50,611 bases of DNA from contig JAFZQX010000018.1 of the NCBI GenBank assembly GCA_017620205.1, positions 1-50,611 on the forward strand, written 5' to 3'. The stretch's first letter is position 1; every line of letters begins with the position of its first letter. The DNA comes from Clostridia bacterium (GTDB lineage: Bacteria > Bacillota > Clostridia > UMGS1883 > UMGS1540). The notes under the pieces are model-generated. The model worked only from the letters and a program-made list of their open reading frames with translations, was not told the origin of the DNA and made no database searches. Both the position numbers and the translations under genes were made by a program. This document shows positions 18,570 to 43,969 of this stretch, in pieces.

Positions 18570-21500
18570 TTATTTATAAAGTGTTTTAATCTTCTGTATC
18601 GGCATTAAGCTTTCGCCGTTCCATGTAAAGATTCTCACCTCGTTAAATCCCGCCGGAAGAGTGAGGCTTATCGAGCCCGATCCCTCCGCAACAGCTGTGT
18701 TTGACGAAAGGAGTACGCCGTCCGCATCATATGAAGCCACAAACACTCTTGTGCCGGGCGTTGCGTTTTCTTCATAGTTTATTGTGATGGTGCTGTTATC
18801 GGCAAGGTCCGTAAGCTTATTTATGTCGGAGCCGCCGCTTTGAACAGTAAGTTTGTTATAAGCTATATTGTCATAGAAGGTTTTTTCCGTATCGTAAAGG
18901 TCTGCGATATCCTCTGCAGACATAGCGCCTGCATATACTTTTACATCGCCGAAGCTTATGTCGCCCGGAATGTATCTGCCGACTTCGCTTGAAGCAAGAC
19001 CTATCCATGACTCAGAAAGCGCGTGACCGCCGAGGCTTACCGTTTCAGTAAGCTTTTGCACGCCGTCAACATAAATGTCTACGGTTTTAACGCCGTCCGT
19101 GAACTTCGGAATAGTCATAACAACGTGATGCCACTGTTTTGATCTGCCGACCGTAAAGTCAGCTGCCCATGCCTTGCCCCAATGATACGGGTTTTGCGTA
19201 TCCATATTGTACTGCCACAAGGTTCCTCTTGAGTTTGTGCCGTCGGAATCGTTTTTGAATGTTCCGTCATCGCGCTTTGCGTTGTACTGCGCAATAGCGA
19301 GGAACGAGTTGCCCGCCGTCTGTTTTGAAATCGGGTCTACGTTTGTCCAGAACGAAAGCGTTATATCCTGCTCTTCAAACGCGGGGTCCGTAATCTTAAA
19401 CTGTTTAGCGTCTGCAGCCGCAATGCCGCCGGGCACGTTATGTGTTATTCTCATAACCTTCTTAACTGTTGACTGGTCATCTTTATCATAGAGATAATCT
19501 GCCGTAAGCGTTACAAGATTTGACGAGTACATATCAAGTACAGCTGTCTGCGATGTGCCCGAGTTTACTATGCCGGATGAGCCCGACTGCGTTGAGGGCG
19601 CGAGATTTGTAAAATCAAGTTCTACAAGTATTTCGCCGTCATTTCCGGGGTCTTGCTGACCTTCTTCGATTGTAAGCGTCGCGTTTAAAACAAGGTCATT
19701 ATAACCTGATTTTGTAAGCGTTGCCGTTACGTTATATGTGCCTACGTCCGTTGCGCCCGTAAACGCTGTGCCGCCGCATGTATAAGCAATGTCTACTCCC
19801 TCTGTTGCACCCTGTGCCGCTGTAACTGTAATGTTGTGGCTCTGACCGTCATACGTTACCGTGCTGCCAGAGAATGTGTATCCCTCTATATCAGATAAAA
19901 CGGTCTGTCCCGACCATTCCGTAAATTCAGGAAGTTGTTCTGCATAAAGCGCTGATATTTCCTGAGAAGACAATACGCCCTCATATACTTTAAAATCGCC
20001 GAGCGTACCGTGCGGAGGCACTGCGTCACGCGTTCTCCACCACCCGTCCGTTGAATTGGCTTTTGAGAAAAACGAGCAGGATACCGTGTTTATGGAAGCG
20101 TTATCGGGAATATCAAGAGTTACGCTCTTTACATATGAACCGTTTACATAAACATCCATAGTTTTCTGGCCGTTTGAACGGACAGGGTTTGTAATAACTA
20201 TATGCTTCCAGCCCGTGGGCGCCTCAAATGCGCCGGTAACACCGGAGGGGAGACAGAACGCCTGTGTTGAGGAAATAGCTTTGTCCGACGTCGGAACGCT
20301 TACGGCGTTCCATGTTCCGTCTGCATTTACGCCGAGGTCAAACGATTCAACGGCGCTGCTGCCGCTTGTATAATCTACTCTGTATGCAAAGATTTCTTTC
20401 CATACGTTACTGTTATCAATATCAGCCCAGAACGAAATTGTGTTGGCGGTGCTTTCAAACGCATCGTTACGCAGTTTCATATTCATTAAATGCTGGTTAT
20501 AAGAATTGCCCGTCGCAACGTTAGGATACGTCTTTTCATCATACAAATCAACATAGTATGTAGTGCCATCGTTTGCGTTATGCAAAGATTCTTTTGTCAT
20601 TCTGTTTTCGGAAGGTCTTTTTGAAAAGCCGAGGGTCGTGCCGCTTGCCCATGTTCCGCTTGCGGTAACGCCCGAGGGACCCGAGGACGGAACTATTGAA
20701 GTTTCGGTCGGAGCATAAGCTACCGCTTCGAAATTTGAAAAGTCAAGCTCTAAAAGGGGACCGCCCGCACTCTGCTGGGACGTAATTGTAAGCGTTGCAT
20801 TTAATACTAAATTATTGTAGCCCGATTTTGTGATTGTTGCCGTTACGGGGTATGTGCCTACTGCCGTAGCACCCGTAAACGCCGCGCCGTTTGAAGTGTA
20901 TGTAATATTTACGTCCTGCGTTGCGCCCCCAGCCGCCGTTACTGTTATGTTATGGCTTTCGCCGTCATATACTACCGACGAATTTGAGAACGTATATCCC
21001 GTGATATTTTGGAGCGCGGGTTCTGTAATCGTAAGCGTCGCGTTTAAAACTAAATCGTTATATCCTTCTTTTGTGATTGTTGCAGTTACGGGGTATGTGC
21101 CAACTGCTGTTGCGCCCGTAAATGCTGCGCCGTTTGAAGTATACGTAACGGTTACGCCTTCTGTTGCGTTTGCACCTGCCGTAACATTTATCATGTGGCT
21201 CGCACCGTCGTAAGTTACCGAGCTGTTTGAGAAAGTATAGCCCTCAATATCCTCAAGTTCTGACGGTGCTGTGCCTTCAACAAATTTGTATGAGTTTTCG
21301 TTATAAAGGGCAGTAATCTCTGACTGCGAAAGCTCACCGGGGTAAACCTTAACCTCGGCAAACTGCATGTGCAAAGGAGTTACTATCGTCTGATTTGAAT
21401 ACGGGTTCTGACCTGCTATACAAAATCTTGCTGTCGTAACAGTACCTTCGGGCTGCGTTGCTGTTGTTTCGCCGAGCAGCGTACCGTTTATGTAAGTTTT

Positions 21501-23729
21501 CATTACTTTCGTGCCATTTGAATACGTCGGATTTGTAATTACAAGGTTTGCCCACTGATTGTTTGCGTCATTTACCGTCGTTTTGAAATTATAGCCCGTA
21601 TAAGCGTCACAGAGAATCATGTTGTTCGACGTTGTTCTGTCTGTACGGAGCGTATAGAGATGCGTTCCGTTTACGGAATAGTCTACTATGCTCTTATAAA
21701 TATATGCCGTAGGATCGTTATCCGCGGGATTATACTTAAACCACAGAGAGATGGTATTTGCCTGTGATTCCAACGCGGGTTCGTTTATAAAACGCTTACG
21801 GTTGTTTGTCTGACAGTTTGTTTTAGCCTGCGAGAAATCAAGATAATATGTCATTTCACCTTGCGAATTCCAAAAGCCCGCCAAATCAAGCTCGTTTGCG
21901 TAGCTTGAATCATCGGACGCCATAACAACCGTTGTTGAGTTTTTAAGAGTACCGTTATTTGTAACGCTGCCTATGCTCGAAGTCGGGTTAGATGAAGTTG
22001 ACGTTGTTTTATCTTTTACATACGTGCTGAAATCAAGGTCAACAAGCAGATCGCTCTGCGTCGGGTCTGAAGTGGAATTAATTCTGAGTGTTGCCATAAG
22101 TACCAGATCGTTATAGCCTTCTTTTGAAATAGTAGCCGTTATGGGGTATGTGCCGACAGCCGTTGCGCCCGAAAATGCCACGCCTCCGCATGTATATGTT
22201 ACGGTTACGCCCTGCGTTGCGTTTGCGCCTGCCGTAACATTTATCATATGGCTCGCACCGTCATAAGTTACCGTGCTGCCGTTAAATGTATAGCCCGATA
22301 CGGTTTCAGCCGCGCCGCTTAAAGTTATTTGACTTGAAACTTCGTTTCCGACAACTTCAAGCGCGGATATGGGAGCTACGCCTACCCTGTATGTCGTGCC
22401 GGAGTCGAGCCCCGTGAAATACGTCTTCTTTGTTGACGGTTGACTTGTCAGAAAGAAATCGCCGTAAATATTCTTTGTTGCAACCTGCGCGCCCGTTGAA
22501 GCATTATAGAGTGTTACCTTATAGCCTTTAACGTAGTTGTCGCAAAGGCCGGGTGCGGATTCCGTATCTTTTGTCGCATTGTTTGAAAACAGAACCTGAA
22601 TTTTGCCCTGCTCGGGTTCTGACAGGTCTACAGTTGCGTTTGAAGGATATGTAGGCGCGGTTGCTCTTGCGCTTCTGTAACTGTCTGTATAAATATAACC
22701 GCCTGTGCCCGCTGCCATCTTCGGAACATCAATAACATAGGGATCGCCTATGTAGCGGTTATTTATTACGTCAAGCTTATGAATATATACTACATTATCT
22801 TTAACTTCCATGAGATACGTGCCCGATACGCCGTACCAAAGCTCGCTGTCATCAGTATGCCAGAGTTCGTCTTTTTCATATTTTACGGCGCCCGATATAC
22901 GGAATTTGGTAAGACCTGACATAGGCAAATCTACACACGTATAACCGCCCTGATACTGATAAATATTCTGGGGATCCTGTACCGGGGGATGGCTGTGACC
23001 GCAAAGGAAAACTATCTGCGGAGTTGTATGCAGAAAGTTATAAAACGTTGTAGAATAAAAAGCAGGAACATTCGTATACATGGTTCCGTAATACACATCT
23101 TTCGGAGGATGATGTATCAAGAGAAATACAGGCTTATTGGGGTTTTGTGCTATTGCCGCCTGCGCGTTTGTCATGATAAAGTTTTCGGTATCAGACGAAA
23201 GCGCGCCGAGGTAGTTTTTCGGAGCTGCCGTTATAAACGTAAAGCCGTTTATTGTTTTAACAGAATCATAATCGCCGATTTTGTTCTGAAAAGCCTGTTT
23301 TGCCGTTGCCGACTGTGTAGCGTCCGAGGAGTTTAAAGTAAACTCATGGTTACCCATGGTATATACCATCTCGGGCGGATTTGACGTAAACACACTGTTC
23401 CAGCCGTTTAAAGCATTGTCGTAAAGCGCCTCTCTCTGCGCGAGAGTTTCAACGCCCGAAGCCGTGTATACAAGGTCACCGACGATGCCTATGGCGTCAA
23501 CGCCTCCCATTTGTTTAAACGGTGTTAAAGCTCTCGTAAACACATCGTTTACCGAGCCTCTTATGTGACAGTCCGACACAAGACCCACACGGAGGTCGGG
23601 CGAGCTTATGGCCTGCGGCGGAAGCGACCAGGCAGCCGATACCGCAGTCGGGATAAGCGTCATCACAAAAGCAAGCGCCATAAAGGCTACAAGTAAATTT
23701 TTAAATCTCTTTTTCATTTTCTCATACAT
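18570..23729 (-). CDS. Giant secreted mosaic protein: metallophosphoesterase, FN3-like, MBG and LamG modules
   Basis: The product has about 1719 residues. The start is ATG 23729 (GGGAG just upstream) or 23717; both give the same signal peptide, ending near VSAA. Modules in order, counted from the long frame: metallophosphoesterase (about 60-375; VGLVSDCHIRG, IVGDLVYT, TMGNHEFT, LLIHHPPKD, LCGHSHPP, all metal ligands present); FN3-like (about 380-490); four MBG/Ig-like repeats of about 75 residues, opening GYTF-x-x-S and ending in GYNDLVLNATLTI; and three LamG-like concanavalin-type domains, each with WK/QWHHVV and DVYVNG. A C-terminal tail of about 90 residues ends in QKIKTLYK. Expected outside the cell, but no SLH or sortase motif is seen. 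The 3' two-thirds is paralogous to the next gene. Confidence 0.85.
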   Translation of the reverse strand: MYEKMKKRFKNLLVAFMALAFVMTLIPTAVSAAWSLPPQAISSPDLRVGLVSDCHIRGSVNDVFTRALTPFKQMGGVDAIGIVGDLVYTASGVETLAQREALYDNALNGWNSVFTSNPPEMVYTMGNHEFTLNSSDATQSATAKQAFQNKIGDYDSVKTINGFTFITAAPKNYLGALSSDTENFIMTNAQAAIAQNPNKPVFLLIHHPPKDVYYGTMYTNVPAFYSTTFYNFLHTTPQIVFLCGHSHPPVQDPQNIYQYQGGYTCVDLPMSGLTKFRISGAVKYEKDELWHTDDSELWYGVSGTYLMEVKDNVVYIHKLDVINNRYIGDPYVIDVPKMAAGTGGYIYTDSYRSARATAPTYPSNATVDLSEPEQGKIQVLFSNNATKDTESAPGLCDNYVKGYKVTLYNASTGAQVATKNIYGDFFLTSQPSTKKTYFTGLDSGTTYRVGVAPISALEVVGNEVSSQITLSGAAETVSGYTFNGSTVTYDGASHMINVTAGANATQGVTVTYTCGGVAFSGATAVGTYPITATISKEGYNDLVLMATLRINSTSDPTQSDLLVDLDFSTYVKDKTTSTSSNPTSSIGSVTNNGTLKNSTTVVMASDDSSYANELDLAGFWNSQGEMTYYLDFSQAKTNCQTNNRKRFINEPALESQANTISLWFKYNPADNDPTAYIYKSIVDYSVNGTHLYTLRTDRTTSNNMILCDAYTGYNFKTTVNDANNQWANLVITNPTYSNGTKVMKTYINGTLLGETTATQPEGTVTTARFCIAGQNPYSNQTIVTPLHMQFAEVKVYPGELSQSEITALYNENSYKFVEGTAPSELEDIEGYTFSNSSVTYDGASHMINVTAGANATEGVTVTYTSNGAAFTGATAVGTYPVTATITKEGYNDLVLNATLTITEPALQNITGYTFSNSSVVYDGESHNITVTAAGGATQDVNITYTSNGAAFTGATAVGTYPVTATITKSGYNNLVLNATLTITSQQSAGGPLLELDFSNFEAVAYAPTETSIVPSSGPSGVTASGTWASGTTLGFSKRPSENRMTKESLHNANDGTTYYVDLYDEKTYPNVATGNSYNQHLMNMKLRNDAFESTANTISFWADIDNSNVWKEIFAYRVDYTSGSSAVESFDLGVNADGTWNAVSVPTSDKAISSTQAFCLPSGVTGAFEAPTGWKHIVITNPVRSNGQKTMDVYVNGSYVKSVTLDIPDNASINTVSCSFFSKANSTDGWWRTRDAVPPHGTLGDFKVYEGVLSSQEISALYAEQLPEFTEWSGQTVLSDIEGYTFSGSTVTYDGQSHNITVTAAQGATEGVDIAYTCGGTAFTGATDVGTYNVTATLTKSGYNDLVLNATLTIEEGQQDPGNDGEILVELDFTNLAPSTQSGSSGIVNSGTSQTAVLDMYSSNLVTLTADYLYDKDDQSTVKKVMRITHNVPGGIAAADAKQFKITDPAFEEQDITLSFWTNVDPISKQTAGNSFLAIAQYNAKRDDGTFKNDSDGTNSRGTLWQYNMDTQNPYHWGKAWAADFTVGRSKQWHHVVMTIPKFTDGVKTVDIYVDGVQKLTETVSLGGHALSESWIGLASSEVGRYIPGDISFGDVKVYAGAMSAEDIADLYDTEKTFYDNIAYNKLTVQSGGSDINKLTDLADNSTITINYEENATPGTRVFVASYDADGVLLSSNTAVAEGSGSISLTLPAGFNEVRIFTWNGESLMPIQKIKTLYK

Positions 23730-23879: not shown

Positions 23880-23932
23880 ATTATACTACAACCTCAATCT
23901 AATGTACATGCAAAAATGTATTTGAAACATGT
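23880..23932 (-). promoter_or_regulatory. Promoter with paired ACATGT-type boxes (copy 1)
   Basis: Minus-strand -10 TATAAT (23880-23885) and -35 TGTACA (23903-23908) are separated by 17 bp. GCATGT (23906-23911) overlaps the -35, and an exact ACATGT (23927-23932) lies 21 bp further upstream. The same arrangement with identical distances occurs at 28422-28474. Confidence 0.7.
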
Positions 23933-23945
23933 ATTTTTGTAAACT

Positions 23946-23979
23946 AAAAGCACCCCGCGGCGAACCGCGGGGTGCTTTT
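23946..23979 (-). terminator. Strong rho-independent terminator of the esterase-LamG gene
   Basis: A perfect 15-bp stem (AAAAGCACCCCGCGG / CCGCGGGGTGCTTTT) with a 4-nt loop and a T4 end lies 19 nt after the stop at 23998. It is symmetrical and could work in both directions. Confidence 0.92.
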
Positions 23980-23997
23980 ATGTCTTTTAATATTTCA

Positions 23998-26900
23998 TTA
24001 TTTATAAAGTGTTGATACCTTCTGAAGCGGTGAGAGATTTTGTGCATTCCATGTATAAATCTTAACCGAGTTAAATCCGGAAGGTAAGGAAAGCGTAAAT
24101 TCTCCCGTACCGTCTGCATTTGCCAAGCTTGCGGAAATAAGATTATCGTCCTCGTCGTAGCAAGCTGCAAATACGGTAACGCCAGTTTCCATGTTTTCGT
24201 TATAGCTTATTGTAACCGAATCTCCCGCTTCAAGATTTGAGAGCTTATTTATAGCGCTGCCGTTCTTTGAAACGGTGATCTTGTTATACGCCATGTTATC
24301 GTAAAAGTCTTTTTCGCTGTCATAAAGAGCCGAAATGCCGTCTGCACTCATAACTCCTGCGTATACTTTAACGTCTGAGAGGCTCATGTCGCCCGGAATA
24401 TAATTGCCGTTTTCATCACAGCCGAGACTGATCCAGGAATCCTGGAGAGTTTTGCCGCCGAGACTTAAGGATTCCGAAAGCTTTTCTACGCCGTCTACAT
24501 ATACTTTAACGAGTTTAGCTCCACCCTGGAACTTCGGAATTGTCATTACAACGTGATGCCACTGTTTAGCTGTGCCTACTACAAACGTGTCGTTTGCCCA
24601 GTTGTTGCTCCAGAGGTATCCGCTGTTAGGATCTGTTTCAAGAGATGTCTGCCATACTCTGCCGCGTGAGTTTGTGCTGTCAGCGGCGTTTCTGAACGTG
24701 CCGTCGCTGCGTTTAGCGTTATACTGCGCTATTGCGTAGTATGAATTTGCGGAAGTCTGTTTTGAAACAGGGTCTAAGTTAGTCCAGAACGAAAGCGTTA
24801 TATCCTGCTCTTCAAACGCGGGGTCTTTAATTTCAAAGCGGTTTGCCGATATTTTTTCGGGATCGGGGTTATTTAAGTGCGTTATTCTGAGTACCTTCTT
24901 TGAAACGGACAAATCATCCTTATTGTGGAGATAGTCTGTTGTAAGCGTTACATCGCTTGAAGAATGCGCTGTGATCTGAGCCGTAGTGCTTGTGCCTTTA
25001 TTTGCAAGTCCTGCGGGGCTTTCCGTAGAACCGGGCGCAAAGTTTGAAAGGTCAAGTTCAAACAAGATATCACCGTCGTCAACGGGCTGTGCCGCTTTGG
25101 GCTCGATTGTAAGCGTTGCTGTTAAAATAAGCTTGTTATAGCCGGCTTTTGTAAGCGTTGCCGTTACATTATATGTGCCTACTTCCGTTGCGCCCGTAAA
25201 TGCTGCGCCGTTTACGGTATAAGCTACATCTACGCCTTCCGTAGCGTTTTCGCCTGCCGTAACTGTGATATTATGGCTTGCGCCGTCATATTCTACGGTT
25301 GCGTTTTCAAATGTATAACCCGTGATATTTTCAAGGGTTGAAGCGCCTTCCGTAAACAAGGGAAGCTGTTCTTCATAAAGGTCTTTAATATCCTGCTCGT
25401 CCATAATGCCCTGACGAACCTCAATATTGCCATACTTCGCGGACTTTTGTACGCGGTATTTAAATCCGTCGCCCTGGTTGCGTGCTGCAAGGGATACTGT
25501 AGCGTTCGTAATTGCAGCGTTGTCGGGAATGTTTAGTGTTACTGTATCTTTAAGCTGACCGTTTATATAAACGTCCATCGTCTTTGCGCCGCCGGAGCAT
25601 TTCGGGTTTGTGATAACAACGTGCTTCCAGCCGCCGGACACCGAATATGCATCCGCAGTTGTATCGGTTGAATTATTCTGTGCGTTCCATGCGCCTTCCG
25701 TGTTCATTGAAAGGTCAAACGAAGCTGTGCCGCCGTTATACTCTACATAGTACTGCAGGATTTCCGTATTTTTGCCCGTATACCTTTCGGGGTCAACCCA
25801 GAAGGAAATTGTGTTATCGTTATCTTCAAGCTCCAATGTGCTGAAATTAAAGCCTATTGTATTGGTTATCCAATCTGCATTTGTATTTTCGAGTGAAATA
25901 TATTCTGTCGTGTTGCCGTTTGCGTTTGTGAAAGTACCTTTATCGATTGTAACGCCCTCTTTAGATCGGATAACAAGGCTTGTATCGTCTGCCCAATCGC
26001 CCGTACCTTCAACACCCGATGTGCCTGTATAAGGATGCGTACCTACATCTTTTTTCATTTTTGAAAGATCCAAGCCGTAGAGTACATATCCTGTTGCATT
26101 CGGATCCACCGGTGCTTTAATCTTAAGCGTTGCGTTTAATATGATAGTGTTATAGCCTTCTTTTGTAAGCGTTGCCGTTACGTTGTATTTGCCGGCTTCC
26201 GTAGCGCCCGTAAACGGTGCGCCGTTTAATGTATAAGCTATATCTACACCTTCCGTTGCGTTTGCGTCTGCCATTACTTCTATATTATGGTTTTCGCCGT
26301 CATAATCTACCGTAAGGTTTGAGAAAGTATAACCCGTAATGTTTTGTGCAAGCGGATCGGGTTCTATATACTGACCGGTATGCTCTTCCTCTACGGAAAC
26401 TTCCTCCGGTATCGTATATGCGTTCTGGTCGCATGCGCTTTCAACAAGCTCACGTGACGGTATTACGCCGTATGTAGCATAGTAAAGATACATGAATATC
26501 TCTTTCTGCTCAAGAGGCCAAGCGTGTCCGCCCCAATTTGTTTTAGCTATAAATCTTGTAACACCGTCGGGAGCATTATAGCTGATAGCCTCATGGTAGC
26601 GGTTTATCGTATCTACAAACTCGCCTACATACTGATGACCTTCCTGCGCGCCTGCGGAAAGGTATACGTGCGTGCCGGGATTTGACGATACGTGAATATC
26701 TTTCATGCTTTCATATGAGTCTTCAAATTTTCCTTCGCCCTCATAGAAATACTTAGCAGGACTGAGGCCGCCTGTAAGTTCAATGCGCGTATTATAATCA
26801 GCCGCTATCTGCGTAGCCGCTTCGCCGCCCATAGAGAAGCCGGCAACGAGGATACGTTTGTCTGTTCCTATCTGCTGTGTAAGCTCACCGTTTTCAACGC

Positions 26901-28389
26901 TCGTTAAAAGAGTTTTGAATCTGTCGTATGACGGGGAAACGTACTTCTGGAAGTCTGTTATCTCAAGAATACTGCCGCTTGCAGGTTTAATAACCGGAAA
27001 TACAACAACCATGGGCGGGAAATAGCCCGCTTTTACCCAGTTGTTGATGCTTGACGGAACCCTCTCTTTTACTTGTTTAATCCCGCCCTGACCGTGTATC
27101 ATAATAAACGTCGGATATTTACCTGCCAGTTTAGGCGTCATATAATATCCGGTACAGTTGCTGTTTAAACTGTAAGTTACTATCTTATTGCTGTATACAT
27201 CCTGTGAGGACGGCGGATAAGCCGGTCCGCCCTCGGGAATCTGCGCGTCGTTAATCGTCAGCGTAGCATTTAAAACGAGGTCGTTATAACCGTTCTTTTT
27301 AATAGTTGCCGTAATGGGGTATACGCCGGGCTCTTCCGAGCCTATAAACTTTGAACCGTTGCATGTATAATGAACATTAACTTTTTCCGTTGCATTAGCT
27401 GCGGGAGTTACATAATTCATATGCGTTGAAAGGTCATAGTTTACGGTTTTATCAGTAAATGTGAAGCCCGTGATGTCAGGCATCGGATCTGTTACAGTAA
27501 ATTTATTCTTGCTTGCATTGTAAGCTGACTGTATGTCGCTTTCAGAAAGTACACCGTCGTATACTTTAACATCGCCGAAGCTCAAATCCATAAGCTGGAA
27601 AATACCTGATGCTGAAATTTCGCCGCCGAAAGCAAACTGCGCATCCTGGAGAGTACCCGAAGGCTTCGTTACAGTCTGCTTACCTACATAAGCGCCGTTT
27701 ATGTAAAGCTTCATATCCTTTGAGCCGTCAACATACTCAGGGTTTGTGATTACATAATGTGCCCATTTACCACCGCATTTAGCTGTCTGATCGCCGTAGT
27801 TGACAGCAACATATCTGCCTACAAGCGGGAATTTTGACATAGTTGTCTGGTTCTGGTCAAGGTTGAAAAGGTTTTTCTCTGTGCCGTCATATTTAACACA
27901 GTAGTTAAACATGTTATACTCTGTCTGATTTCTGTTTACAGGGTAGGGACGCGCCCAGAACGAAATTGTATTTGCCTGTGTTTCCAAAGCAGACTGTGAT
28001 ACTGTGGCGTAACGGTTTGATTCTTTGCAGACATTATGCTGTACTGTTTTGTGCAGGAACTGTGTTTGACCGCCTTCTGCGTTATTAAAGCTTTCCTTTT
28101 TAATGTCAAGACCGTACGAAGAGCCTGACCAGGGATACATTTTGACAACCGTTGAGCCGTTTAATGTACCGCTATCTGTGATGTTGCCGATTGAGCCCTG
28201 AATATCTGCGGGCTTTGTAGAACTTGCGTTCCTTTGATACGTGCTCACGTCAAGATCGATGAGCAATGTGTTTGCCGCCTGAACTGCAACTATTTCAGAC
28301 GGGAGCAATGAAACTGTCATCATTGCACAAAGCAAAACCGCCAATGTGGTCATTGCTTTTTTGCCTAATTTTCCAATTACTTTTTTCAT
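23998..28389 (-). CDS. Giant secreted mosaic protein: LamG, MBG and serine-esterase modules
   Basis: The product has 1463 residues; the ATG at 28389 follows AGGAGGTATAGT. A signal peptide (about 1-39) is followed by LamG-like 1 (40-300), MBG 1 (305-385), an alpha/beta-hydrolase (about 395-660), MBG 2, LamG-like 2, MBG 3, LamG-like 3 and the same tail as the neighbouring paralogue (ends QKVSTLYK). The hydrolase has the oxyanion-loop MIHGQGG, nucleophile motif GFSMGG and a probable catalytic His in GGHAWPLEQKE. This fits the esterase D/feruloyl or acetyl-xylan esterase type, so removal of ester groups from plant or microbial glycans is likely but unproven. It is secreted, with no visible anchor. 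It probably shares regulation with its paralogue through the ACATGT promoter. Confidence 0.87.
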   Translation of the reverse strand: MKKVIGKLGKKAMTTLAVLLCAMMTVSLLPSEIVAVQAANTLLIDLDVSTYQRNASSTKPADIQGSIGNITDSGTLNGSTVVKMYPWSGSSYGLDIKKESFNNAEGGQTQFLHKTVQHNVCKESNRYATVSQSALETQANTISFWARPYPVNRNQTEYNMFNYCVKYDGTEKNLFNLDQNQTTMSKFPLVGRYVAVNYGDQTAKCGGKWAHYVITNPEYVDGSKDMKLYINGAYVGKQTVTKPSGTLQDAQFAFGGEISASGIFQLMDLSFGDVKVYDGVLSESDIQSAYNASKNKFTVTDPMPDITGFTFTDKTVNYDLSTHMNYVTPAANATEKVNVHYTCNGSKFIGSEEPGVYPITATIKKNGYNDLVLNATLTINDAQIPEGGPAYPPSSQDVYSNKIVTYSLNSNCTGYYMTPKLAGKYPTFIMIHGQGGIKQVKERVPSSINNWVKAGYFPPMVVVFPVIKPASGSILEITDFQKYVSPSYDRFKTLLTSVENGELTQQIGTDKRILVAGFSMGGEAATQIAADYNTRIELTGGLSPAKYFYEGEGKFEDSYESMKDIHVSSNPGTHVYLSAGAQEGHQYVGEFVDTINRYHEAISYNAPDGVTRFIAKTNWGGHAWPLEQKEIFMYLYYATYGVIPSRELVESACDQNAYTIPEEVSVEEEHTGQYIEPDPLAQNITGYTFSNLTVDYDGENHNIEVMADANATEGVDIAYTLNGAPFTGATEAGKYNVTATLTKEGYNTIILNATLKIKAPVDPNATGYVLYGLDLSKMKKDVGTHPYTGTSGVEGTGDWADDTSLVIRSKEGVTIDKGTFTNANGNTTEYISLENTNADWITNTIGFNFSTLELEDNDNTISFWVDPERYTGKNTEILQYYVEYNGGTASFDLSMNTEGAWNAQNNSTDTTADAYSVSGGWKHVVITNPKCSGGAKTMDVYINGQLKDTVTLNIPDNAAITNATVSLAARNQGDGFKYRVQKSAKYGNIEVRQGIMDEQDIKDLYEEQLPLFTEGASTLENITGYTFENATVEYDGASHNITVTAGENATEGVDVAYTVNGAAFTGATEVGTYNVTATLTKAGYNKLILTATLTIEPKAAQPVDDGDILFELDLSNFAPGSTESPAGLANKGTSTTAQITAHSSSDVTLTTDYLHNKDDLSVSKKVLRITHLNNPDPEKISANRFEIKDPAFEEQDITLSFWTNLDPVSKQTSANSYYAIAQYNAKRSDGTFRNAADSTNSRGRVWQTSLETDPNSGYLWSNNWANDTFVVGTAKQWHHVVMTIPKFQGGAKLVKVYVDGVEKLSESLSLGGKTLQDSWISLGCDENGNYIPGDMSLSDVKVYAGVMSADGISALYDSEKDFYDNMAYNKITVSKNGSAINKLSNLEAGDSVTISYNENMETGVTVFAACYDEDDNLISASLANADGTGEFTLSLPSGFNSVKIYTWNAQNLSPLQKVSTLYK

Positions 28390-28421
28390 ACTATACCTCC
28401 TATTTTACAACAGTTATAAAT

Positions 28422-28474
28422 ATTATACTACTTATTATTTTTACAGTACATGTAAAAAAATAAACAAAACATGT
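28422..28474 (-). promoter_or_regulatory. Promoter with paired ACATGT boxes (copy 2)
   Basis: Minus-strand -10 TATAAT (28422-28427) and -35 TGTACT (28445-28450) are separated by 17 bp. Palindromic ACATGT boxes lie at 28448-28453 (overlapping the -35) and 28469-28474, 21 bp apart. The geometry matches copy 1 at 23880-23932 exactly. The transcript leader would be only about 25 nt. Confidence 0.72.
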
Positions 28475-28630
28475 AAATTTGTATATGCGGTTATTTTTGT
28501 TTATTATAAACATTTTGCGTATCGCCGCATCAACAGCAGTGCCGTTTTTTTTGTTTAATTTCCATAAACTTTGCGCGCGAATATGGAAAAAAATACTATT
28601 TTTTCACCGTTTTTTGCCGATTTTGAAGGC

Positions 28631-33780: not shown

Positions 33781-34064
33781 TAATCTTTCACCTCCTCATT
33801 ATTAATTATATTTGAAAAAGACATGTCGTCTTTTTTCAGCACTGCAACGGCCGCGCCGACATCTATTTTGCATGCGCTGCCGAGTTCTTTGCAGGTTTTG
33901 CAGTATTCCACGGGAACACCGTATTCCCTGCAAACGCTTATAAACGGCTCGCGGACGTGAAAATCCGCGTCCTCCGCGACAAAGGCCTTTGCCGCGGAGC
34001 CGCTTTTAACCGCTTTAAGGGACTGTTTAAGTCCTATTATAGTATCAGATAAGTCGCTGTCCAT
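33780..34064 (-). CDS. rplGB: Ribosomal protein L7Ae-like (YbxF/RplGB type)
   Basis: The product has 94 residues from the ATG at 34064, with GGAGG just upstream. It is a small L7Ae/L30e/Gadd45-fold protein, recognised by the segment [11 protein letters not shown], then [27 protein letters not shown]. In Bacillus the homologue YbxF occupies the same place between rpoC and rpsL and binds kink-turn RNA. This copy is longer at both ends, with an Asn/Asp-rich tail, and has Cys residues not typical of the family. Translation is coupled to rpsL. Confidence 0.85.
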
Positions 34065-34087
34065 TTTTCCTCCGTTTGGGAGCAAAT

Positions 34088-42901: not shown

Positions 42902-43969
42902 TTATTTTACTTCGTATGTCCAGCCGAGCACATCTTCTGCTCTGCCGTTCTGGATATCCGTTATAGAGTTATAAAGTCTTTCCGCTATCGGACCTGTCTT
43001 GCCGCCGTTTATAGTAGCGATTTTGCCTTCCCAGTTGAGCTCGCCGATAGGCGAAATAACAGCTGCCGTACCTGTACCGAAAGCTTCGTCAAGCTTGCCT
43101 GCGTCGTTTGCTTCGTAGAGTTCCTGAATTGAAAGTCTGCGTTCTTCGCAGGGCACGCCCCAGTATTTAAGTATCTGGATAACGCTGTCACGCGTTACGC
43201 CGGGGAGCAAGCTGCCTTCAAGCGCGGGTGTAACAACTTTGCCGTCGATAACAAAGAATACGTTCATCGTTCCAACTTCTTCAACGTATTTTCTCTCTAC
43301 GCCGTCAAGCCAGAGAACCTGTGTATAACCTTTTTCCTGTGCAACTTCCTGGGCTTTGATACTTGCAGCGTAGTTGCCTGCTGTCTTTGTATGACCCATA
43401 CCGCCTTTTACGGCACGAACATAATTATCTTCAACATAAATTTTAACCGGGTTTATGCCTTCGGGATAATATGAACCAACGGGCGAAAGAATTATGATAT
43501 ATTTATATGTCTGAGACGGTTTAACGCCGAGGTGAACGTCCGTTGCGATAATAAAGGGTCTTATATATAAAGCAGTGTCCTTTTCCTGGGGAATCCAGTC
43601 CTGGTCAACTTTGATAAGCTCGCAAAGAGCTTTTGTGCAGAACTCTTCATCAATTTTCGGAATGCAGAGTCTGTCGTTTGAGCTGTTTGTTCTCGCCATG
43701 TTTTTGTCGGGACGGAAAAGCAGGATTTTTCCTTCTTTTGTTTTATAAGCTTTCATACCCTCGAAAATAGCCTGTCCGTAATGGAGAACCATTGAAGCGG
43801 GGTCCATCATAAGCGGAGCATAGGGAACTATTCTTGCGTCATGCCAGCCTTTTTCGGGGCAGTAATCCATAACAAACATATGATCTGTAAAAATTTTGCC
43901 GAAACCGAGCGCAGCACCTTTTTCGGGCTTTGCCTTAGGAGTAGTTGTTCTTGTGATTGAAATTTCCAT
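42902..43969 (-). CDS. ilvE: Branched-chain amino acid aminotransferase
   Basis: A pyridoxal-phosphate enzyme of fold type IV that interconverts branched-chain amino acids and their 2-oxo acids with glutamate. It has 355 residues from ATG 43969 (AAGGAAG, 8 nt spacing). It matches the long IlvE form: MVLHYGQAIFEGMKAY, RPDKNMAR, the cofactor lysine near residue 195 in GHTKTAGNYAAS, EEVGTMNVFFV and FGTGTAAVISPIG. It is transcribed from its own promoter at 44007-44035, divergently from feoA. No T-box or leader peptide is visible in the short leader. Confidence 0.97.
   Translation of the reverse strand: MEISITRTTTPKAKPEKGAALGFGKIFTDHMFVMDYCPEKGWHDARIVPYAPLMMDPASMVLHYGQAIFEGMKAYKTKEGKILLFRPDKNMARTNSSNDRLCIPKIDEEFCTKALCELIKVDQDWIPQEKDTALYIRPFIIATDVHLGVKPSQTYKYIIILSPVGSYYPEGINPVKIYVEDNYVRAVKGGMGHTKTAGNYAASIKAQEVAQEKGYTQVLWLDGVERKYVEEVGTMNVFFVIDGKVVTPALEGSLLPGVTRDSVIQILKYWGVPCEERRLSIQELYEANDAGKLDEAFGTGTAAVISPIGELNWEGKIATINGGKTGPIAERLYNSITDIQNGRAEDVLGWTYEVK

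Follow-up and report, generated by a model that had tools for sequence, protein, structure and literature searches.

A monomer of an AraC/XylS-family regulator reads one half-site through two helix-turn-helix (HTH) motifs placed in adjacent major grooves, and a dimer of such a protein bound over a poor -35 element activates transcription, an arrangement termed class II and exemplified by AraC at araI1-I2 and XylS at Pm. The XylS operator, TGCA-N6-GGNTA-N6-TGCA-N6-GGNTA, has a 21-bp period (PMC4514859; for XylS see also PMC5481539), and the MekR operator, CACC-N5-CTTCAA-N6-CACC-N5-CTTCAA, has the same period (PMC4514859). Caldicellulosiruptor contains AraC-family regulators with tandem repeats upstream of promoters, which have been interpreted as activators (PMC8579813). 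In Clostridium cellulolyticum, XydR of the XydS/XydR system controls a secreted hemicellulase cluster together with the distant gene of a further CBM6 protein (PMC3572039).

The promoters described here share the tandem 21-bp repeat of the XylS, MekR and AraC operators, with sub-boxes about one helical turn apart, and the MekR spacing CACC-N5-CTTCAA-N6 is exactly that of TACA-N5-ACATGT-N6 in the present operator. As with XylS, MekR and AraC at araI1-I2, the putative activator site overlaps the polymerase site. The box bases are different, however, and those systems come from Proteobacteria, whereas the present operator is from Clostridia and its binding is predicted. PecR, AxuRS and other regulators of Caldicellulosiruptor bescii are likewise AraC-family proteins encoded beside glycan genes; several of them have been described as local (PMC8579813), whereas here one motif stands at seven promoters, including those of giant LamG/MBG genes. 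The XydS/XydR system offers another parallel, in that an AraC-type DNA-binding protein governs secreted-protein genes including a distant one, although XydR is a two-component response regulator and the regulator that we favor is a one-component cupin protein.

Two promoters in the window

The window is the whole stretch of 50,611 nucleotides that was analysed. In it, ACATGT-N15-(A/G)CATGT-N20-TATAAT occurs at 23880-23932 and at 28422-28474, both times on the minus strand, where 23932-23880 reads ACATGTTTCAAATACATTTTTGCATGTACATTAGATTGAGGTTGTAGTATAAT and 28474-28422 reads ACATGTTTTGTTTATTTTTTTACATGTACTGTAAAAATAATAAGTAGTATAAT, and each site lies upstream of a secreted LamG/MBG gene. At both sites 21 bp separate the starts of the two boxes, the end of the proximal box is 20 nt from TATAAT (26 start to start), and both promoters have a TGTAC(A/T) -35 with a 17-bp spacer to the -10. 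Most bases between these elements differ despite the identical distances. Sequence and coordinates thus agree with the first-pass annotation, which had described a paired-ACATGT layout with equal distances at the two genes. The features are the following.

18570-23717, minus strand: target gene 1, secreted 1715-aa protein (Pfam; signal peptide)
23880-23885, minus strand: -10 hexamer TATAAT of promoter 1 (sequence; register common to 7/7 genome sites)
23903-23908, minus strand: poor -35 TGTACA, overlapped by the proximal box (sequence; 17-bp spacer)
23906-23920, minus strand: proximal half-site TACA-TTTTT-GCATGT of promoter 1 (seven-site alignment, columns 26-40)
23927-23941, minus strand: distal half-site TACA-AAAAT-ACATGT of promoter 1 (alignment columns 5-19; 21 bp upstream of the proximal one)
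23949-23978, minus strand: terminator-like GC-rich hairpin and T run after the gene upstream of gene 1 (by eye)
23998-28389, minus strand: target gene 2, secreted 1463-aa protein (Pfam)
28422-28427, minus strand: -10 hexamer TATAAT of promoter 2 (sequence)
28445-28450, minus strand: poor -35 TGTACT of promoter 2, overlapped by the proximal box (sequence)
28448-28462, minus strand: proximal half-site TATT-TTTTT-ACATGT of promoter 2 (alignment columns 26-40)
28469-28483, minus strand: distal half-site TACA-AATTT-ACATGT of promoter 2 (alignment columns 5-19)

By Pfam, gene 1 encodes a signal peptide, an N-terminal Metallophos domain, Laminin_G_3 and MBG_3; its start at 23717 was picked for the signal peptide MKKRFKNLLVAFMALAFVMTLIPTAVSA, and the open reading frame itself runs from 23786. 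The product of gene 2 has a signal peptide, three Laminin_G_3 domains, a weak esterase match and MBG_3. Because the terminator-like hairpin appears, by eye, to end the upstream gene, gene 1 seems to have its own promoter.

Single ACATGT hexamers are no more frequent in the window than chance predicts (8 against 9.5 expected), and the idea of ACATGT as a free-standing palindromic operator was rejected on this chance frequency. The box pair with at most one mismatch gave 4 strand-wise matches against 0.67 expected, a count equalled in 2 of 100 shuffles.

Seven sites across the genome

The 2.34-Mb genome was covered by pattern and profile searches, and the stretches around the matches were examined. 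The single hexamer is common in it, and a pair together with its -10 is rare. Four places match ACATGT-N15-RCATGTA exactly, all four with TATAAT exactly 20 nt downstream, and the reversed control pattern has no match in the genome. When the pattern including the -10 was allowed three mismatches, three further real sites appeared, along with one opposite-strand match overlapping the 28-kb site (promoter 2); the control pattern gave one match. Searched with a profile of these seven sites, the genome returns all of them at E<1e-10 and its next best match at 0.06, so that E-values jump by about nine orders of magnitude after the seventh site. The seven promoters are spread over six contigs, and every site precedes a gene in the correct orientation with TATAAT in register. 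A strict full-site pattern had zero exact matches among the 84,980 species of genome_contigs, a collection that may lack the records of this genome itself, so sites elsewhere were found by way of AraC orthologs.

LamG genes follow four of the seven sites, namely both window genes and those on contigs C9 and C8, a positive outcome of the genome-wide search that the first-pass annotation had proposed. The C9 site precedes the gene of a 2415-aa LamG-esterase-MBG protein, and the C8 site precedes an esterase-LamG gene followed by a second LamG gene. Behind the C14 site are the genes of a secreted Cu_amine_oxidN1 protein and, after it, of a beta-helix protein that weakly matches GH141. The C7 site heads an operon for a YesN-type regulator, two ABC permeases and Cu_amine_oxidN1 proteins, and the C41 site heads one for a sugar isomerase (AP_endonuc_2) and three Gfo/Idh/MocA-type oxidoreductases, one of them with a GH109 domain. 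A LamG/MBG regulon as such was rejected: the genome has 46 LamG matches in about 20 genes, only four of which have a site directly upstream, and three sites precede operons of other kinds. Four LamG genes without a site lie within about 35 kb after the regulator/ABC-transporter operon (G000:C7:100533-136138). Since the genes behind the 28-kb, C9 and C8 sites have similar leaders and signal peptides, the seven sites amount to about five independent cases. Leader length counts against the operator reading, at about 160 nt for gene 1 and about 130 nt for C7 versus the usual 30-36 nt.

Several weaker matches deserve mention. One on C46 (31713) was rejected, with no recognisable gene start in the 214 bases before the contig end. 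A degenerate eighth site on C18 (L218; G000:C18, about 34010-34080, plus strand) lies upstream of a secreted-protein gene, with its proximal half and -10 in register and its distal half about 3 nt closer; the reading frame opened by the first ATG of that gene meets a TAA at codon 3, the contig ends within the gene, and a divergent AraC-family gene adjoins the site. On C41, the promoter of a peptidase_C39-AraC gene pair carries a TTTTTACATGTA box (L048:12979-13033; G000:C41:42978-43032, minus strand). The ACATGT of this weak match at 42978 is 18, not 20, nt from a -10-like TATACA, and the TTTTTACATGTA box may possibly serve autoregulation of the pair.

Architecture of the putative operator

Alignment of the seven sites gives the full site as TACA-N5-ACATGT-N6-TACA-N5-ACATGT, a 21-bp direct repeat, in which a conserved GT(T/A)TACAAAA(A/T)T immediately precedes the distal box and extends into it. 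The first-pass annotation had the boxes right and missed the GT(T/A)TACAAAA just before the distal one; its ACATGT boxes are present but turn out to be parts of the direct repeats of a longer half-site, not isolated palindromes. With all shifts tested, self-match is best at 21 (z 3.0 in the own sites and z 3.8 in 21 ortholog sites). The proximal half-site overlaps a poor -35, TGTACN, which matches TTGACA at 3-4 of 6 positions, and the -35/-10 register is kept in all seven sites.

Three features are those of an AraC/XylS operator: a 21-bp period with two sub-boxes about 10 bp apart in each half, a sigma-70-type promoter whose poor -35 is overlapped by the proximal half-site, and conservation of the site in other species beside the gene of the candidate regulator (38/80 loci, below). 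LytTR regulators also bind direct repeats of 21-22 bp. A regulator of that type was rejected here, the sole LytTR gene of the genome being on C37, near none of the seven sites. The earlier proposal of one regulator acting from one DNA face at both window promoters is well supported.

A candidate regulator and its relatives

The first-pass annotation had placed the regulator itself outside the window, and it is indeed absent there; the candidate that we propose is on contig C41.

L048:11437-12315, minus strand: AraC-cupin gene, contig C41 (Pfam)

The genome has 14 AraC-family genes, and such genes adjoin two of the seven sites. The C41 gene lies immediately upstream of its copy of the site and of the isomerase/oxidoreductase operon. 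Its product scores above Pfam cut-offs for HTH_18, HTH_AraC and AraC_binding and so has the C-terminal double HTH and N-terminal cupin sensor domain of the AraC/XylS family; its DNA-binding domain matches the solved domains of AraC, SoxS, RamA and YesN. The best NCBIfam match is TIGR04094 (YSIRK-targeted surface antigen transcriptional regulator), which shares the AraC-type HTH and is named for surface antigen genes. Membership was rejected, as the match covers the HTH region only and reaches 74 bits against a 200-bit cut-off.

The five closest orthologs of the C41 protein (47-51% identity) have their best operator match in the intergenic stretch preceding araC, pointed away from that gene and in the same register. 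With the full matrix, no more than 1 of 1000 shuffles equalled any one of these matches; with a matrix lacking the -10, between 0 and 31 of 1000 did. A broader survey, with a matrix made from six own sites, the C41 site being left out, took in 80 orthologous loci; they come from named genomes, for the most part MAGs of Clostridia from animal guts. In 38 of the 80 loci the best place was 0-100 nt upstream of the AraC gene and pointed to its divergent neighbor; 60 column-permuted matrices averaged 5.6 such loci and never exceeded 14. Without the -10 the advantage is modest, with 20 of 80 loci against a permuted mean of 4.6 and maximum of 16. Thirty of these 80 loci have an isomerase ortholog (52-73% identity), and its gene is almost always the neighbor divergent from AraC. 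What the ortholog operators have in common with the present one is the TACAAAA..AC.T part and the -10; they lack the exact ACATGT palindrome. A PIG-L deacetylase gene replaces the sugar isomerase as divergent neighbor in two loci (L109, 4170-4868, and L116, 4104-4808), and another (L094 1471-3277, G003:C7) has tandem C41-type AraC paralogs, both matched by the C41 protein at 47-48% identity.

Among 60 relatives, sites at E<1e-6 occur only in the five best carriers of a C41-AraC ortholog (at least 47% identity), and the operator lies beside those orthologs in G003, G004, G005, G017 and G034. Identical copies of the sites of three of these five relatives were in the training set of the second model (R2), so the tests with own-site matrices weigh more. 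Convincing sites number one to three per relative. The additional ones stand in front of genes for a secreted protein in G003, for Gfo/Idh oxidoreductases in G064 and G065, and for an isomerase in G065. Matches in G025 (partial) and G058 were not accepted as sites. The regulon of seven sites looks like an enlargement of a mostly local one. A weaker, similar operator before the gene of a secreted protein that is GH43-like by eye (L220; G016:C18:21362-21426) is kept as a lead; G016 has no C41-AraC ortholog at E<1e-20.

Weighing the explanations

The seven sites, their geometry, their bounded distribution and the operator beside the regulator's orthologs are what the computation itself delivers. 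Chance matching in AT-rich intergenic DNA, to which the chance frequency of the single ACATGT might point, is refuted by the counts: in E-value the seven matches lead the next one by about nine orders of magnitude, and genome_contigs holds no exact match to the strict pattern. Promoter DNA could also have been duplicated and have travelled with paralogous surface genes, with no common regulator, and the 28-kb, C9 and C8 genes are similar in leaders and signal peptides. This is very improbable, however, as gene starts differ for window gene 1, C14, C41 and C7, the C14, C41 and C7 genes differ in domains, the spacers differ, and the operator is kept across genomes beside an AraC gene.

The identity and sign of the regulator are a closer matter. 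We consider it unlikely, though worth keeping in mind, that another AraC-family protein reads the operators, above all the C7 YesN-type response regulator, which would then combine autoregulation of its own transporter operon with control of the surface genes. The C7 site is upstream of the yesN gene, whose product has Response_reg and HTH_18/HTH_AraC domains, AraC-type response regulators such as XydR control glycan genes in Clostridia (PMC3572039), and the AraC-family gene on C18 lies beside the degenerate site that precedes a secreted-protein gene. However, the YesN protein has matches at E<1e-20 only in relatives G033 and G051, at 24-28% identity, whereas the operator stands beside C41-AraC orthologs in G003, G004, G005, G017 and G034, which have no close C7-YesN relative; the absence of such a relative from operator-carrying genomes argues against C7 YesN as the ancestral reader of the site. 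XydR itself is also without autoregulation (PMC3572039). Rather doubtful is a repressor that covers the -35 and blocks RNA polymerase. Overlap of the proximal half-site with the -35 would suit it, but a poor -35 (TGTACN, 3-4/6 to TTGACA) suits dependence on an activator, and Caldicellulosiruptor AraC-family sites upstream of promoters have been read as activator sites (PMC8579813).

We therefore return to the C41 protein: the sites are probably AraC/XylS-type operators read by this AraC-cupin activator, at its neighboring isomerase/oxidoreductase operon and at six further promoters. From sequence we infer its binding, activation as opposed to repression, and its inducer. Two monomers, one per half-site, would bind on the same helix face, the two HTH motifs of each reading TACA and ACATGT in successive major grooves, and the bound dimer over the poor -35 would recruit RNA polymerase (class II activation). 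The C41 protein, as the most likely regulator, would sense a sugar or glycoside connected with the isomerase/oxidoreductase pathway and would control the isomerase/Gfo-Idh-MocA operon beside it. The six further targets in this lineage would be the promoters of secreted esterase/LamG/beta-helix proteins and of the YesN-ABC-transporter operon. The cytoplasmic pathway would then be switched on jointly with the surface esterase/lectin-type proteins and a transporter operon.

Implications

The regulon is new and its kind already known. Its general interest is moderate, and it is useful for a poorly studied lineage: an uncultured group of gut Clostridia gains a defined regulon, a readable operator and a named candidate regulator, and giant LamG/MBG surface proteins that are otherwise uninterpretable would be tied to a program of glycan use. 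Conservation of the operator across animal-gut Clostridia is sufficient to help target prediction in other genomes. Relatives carry one to three sites where this genome carries seven, which makes the system a tractable case of regulon growth. We lean slightly toward the view that a sugar regulator of the AraC type, local in most relatives with only one to three sites beside a sugar-isomerase or oxidoreductase gene, has in this lineage come to govern a dispersed regulon of seven promoters that takes in giant multidomain surface esterases/lectin-like proteins and another regulator; if that is true, a cytoplasmic glycoside pathway has been linked to cell-surface machinery.
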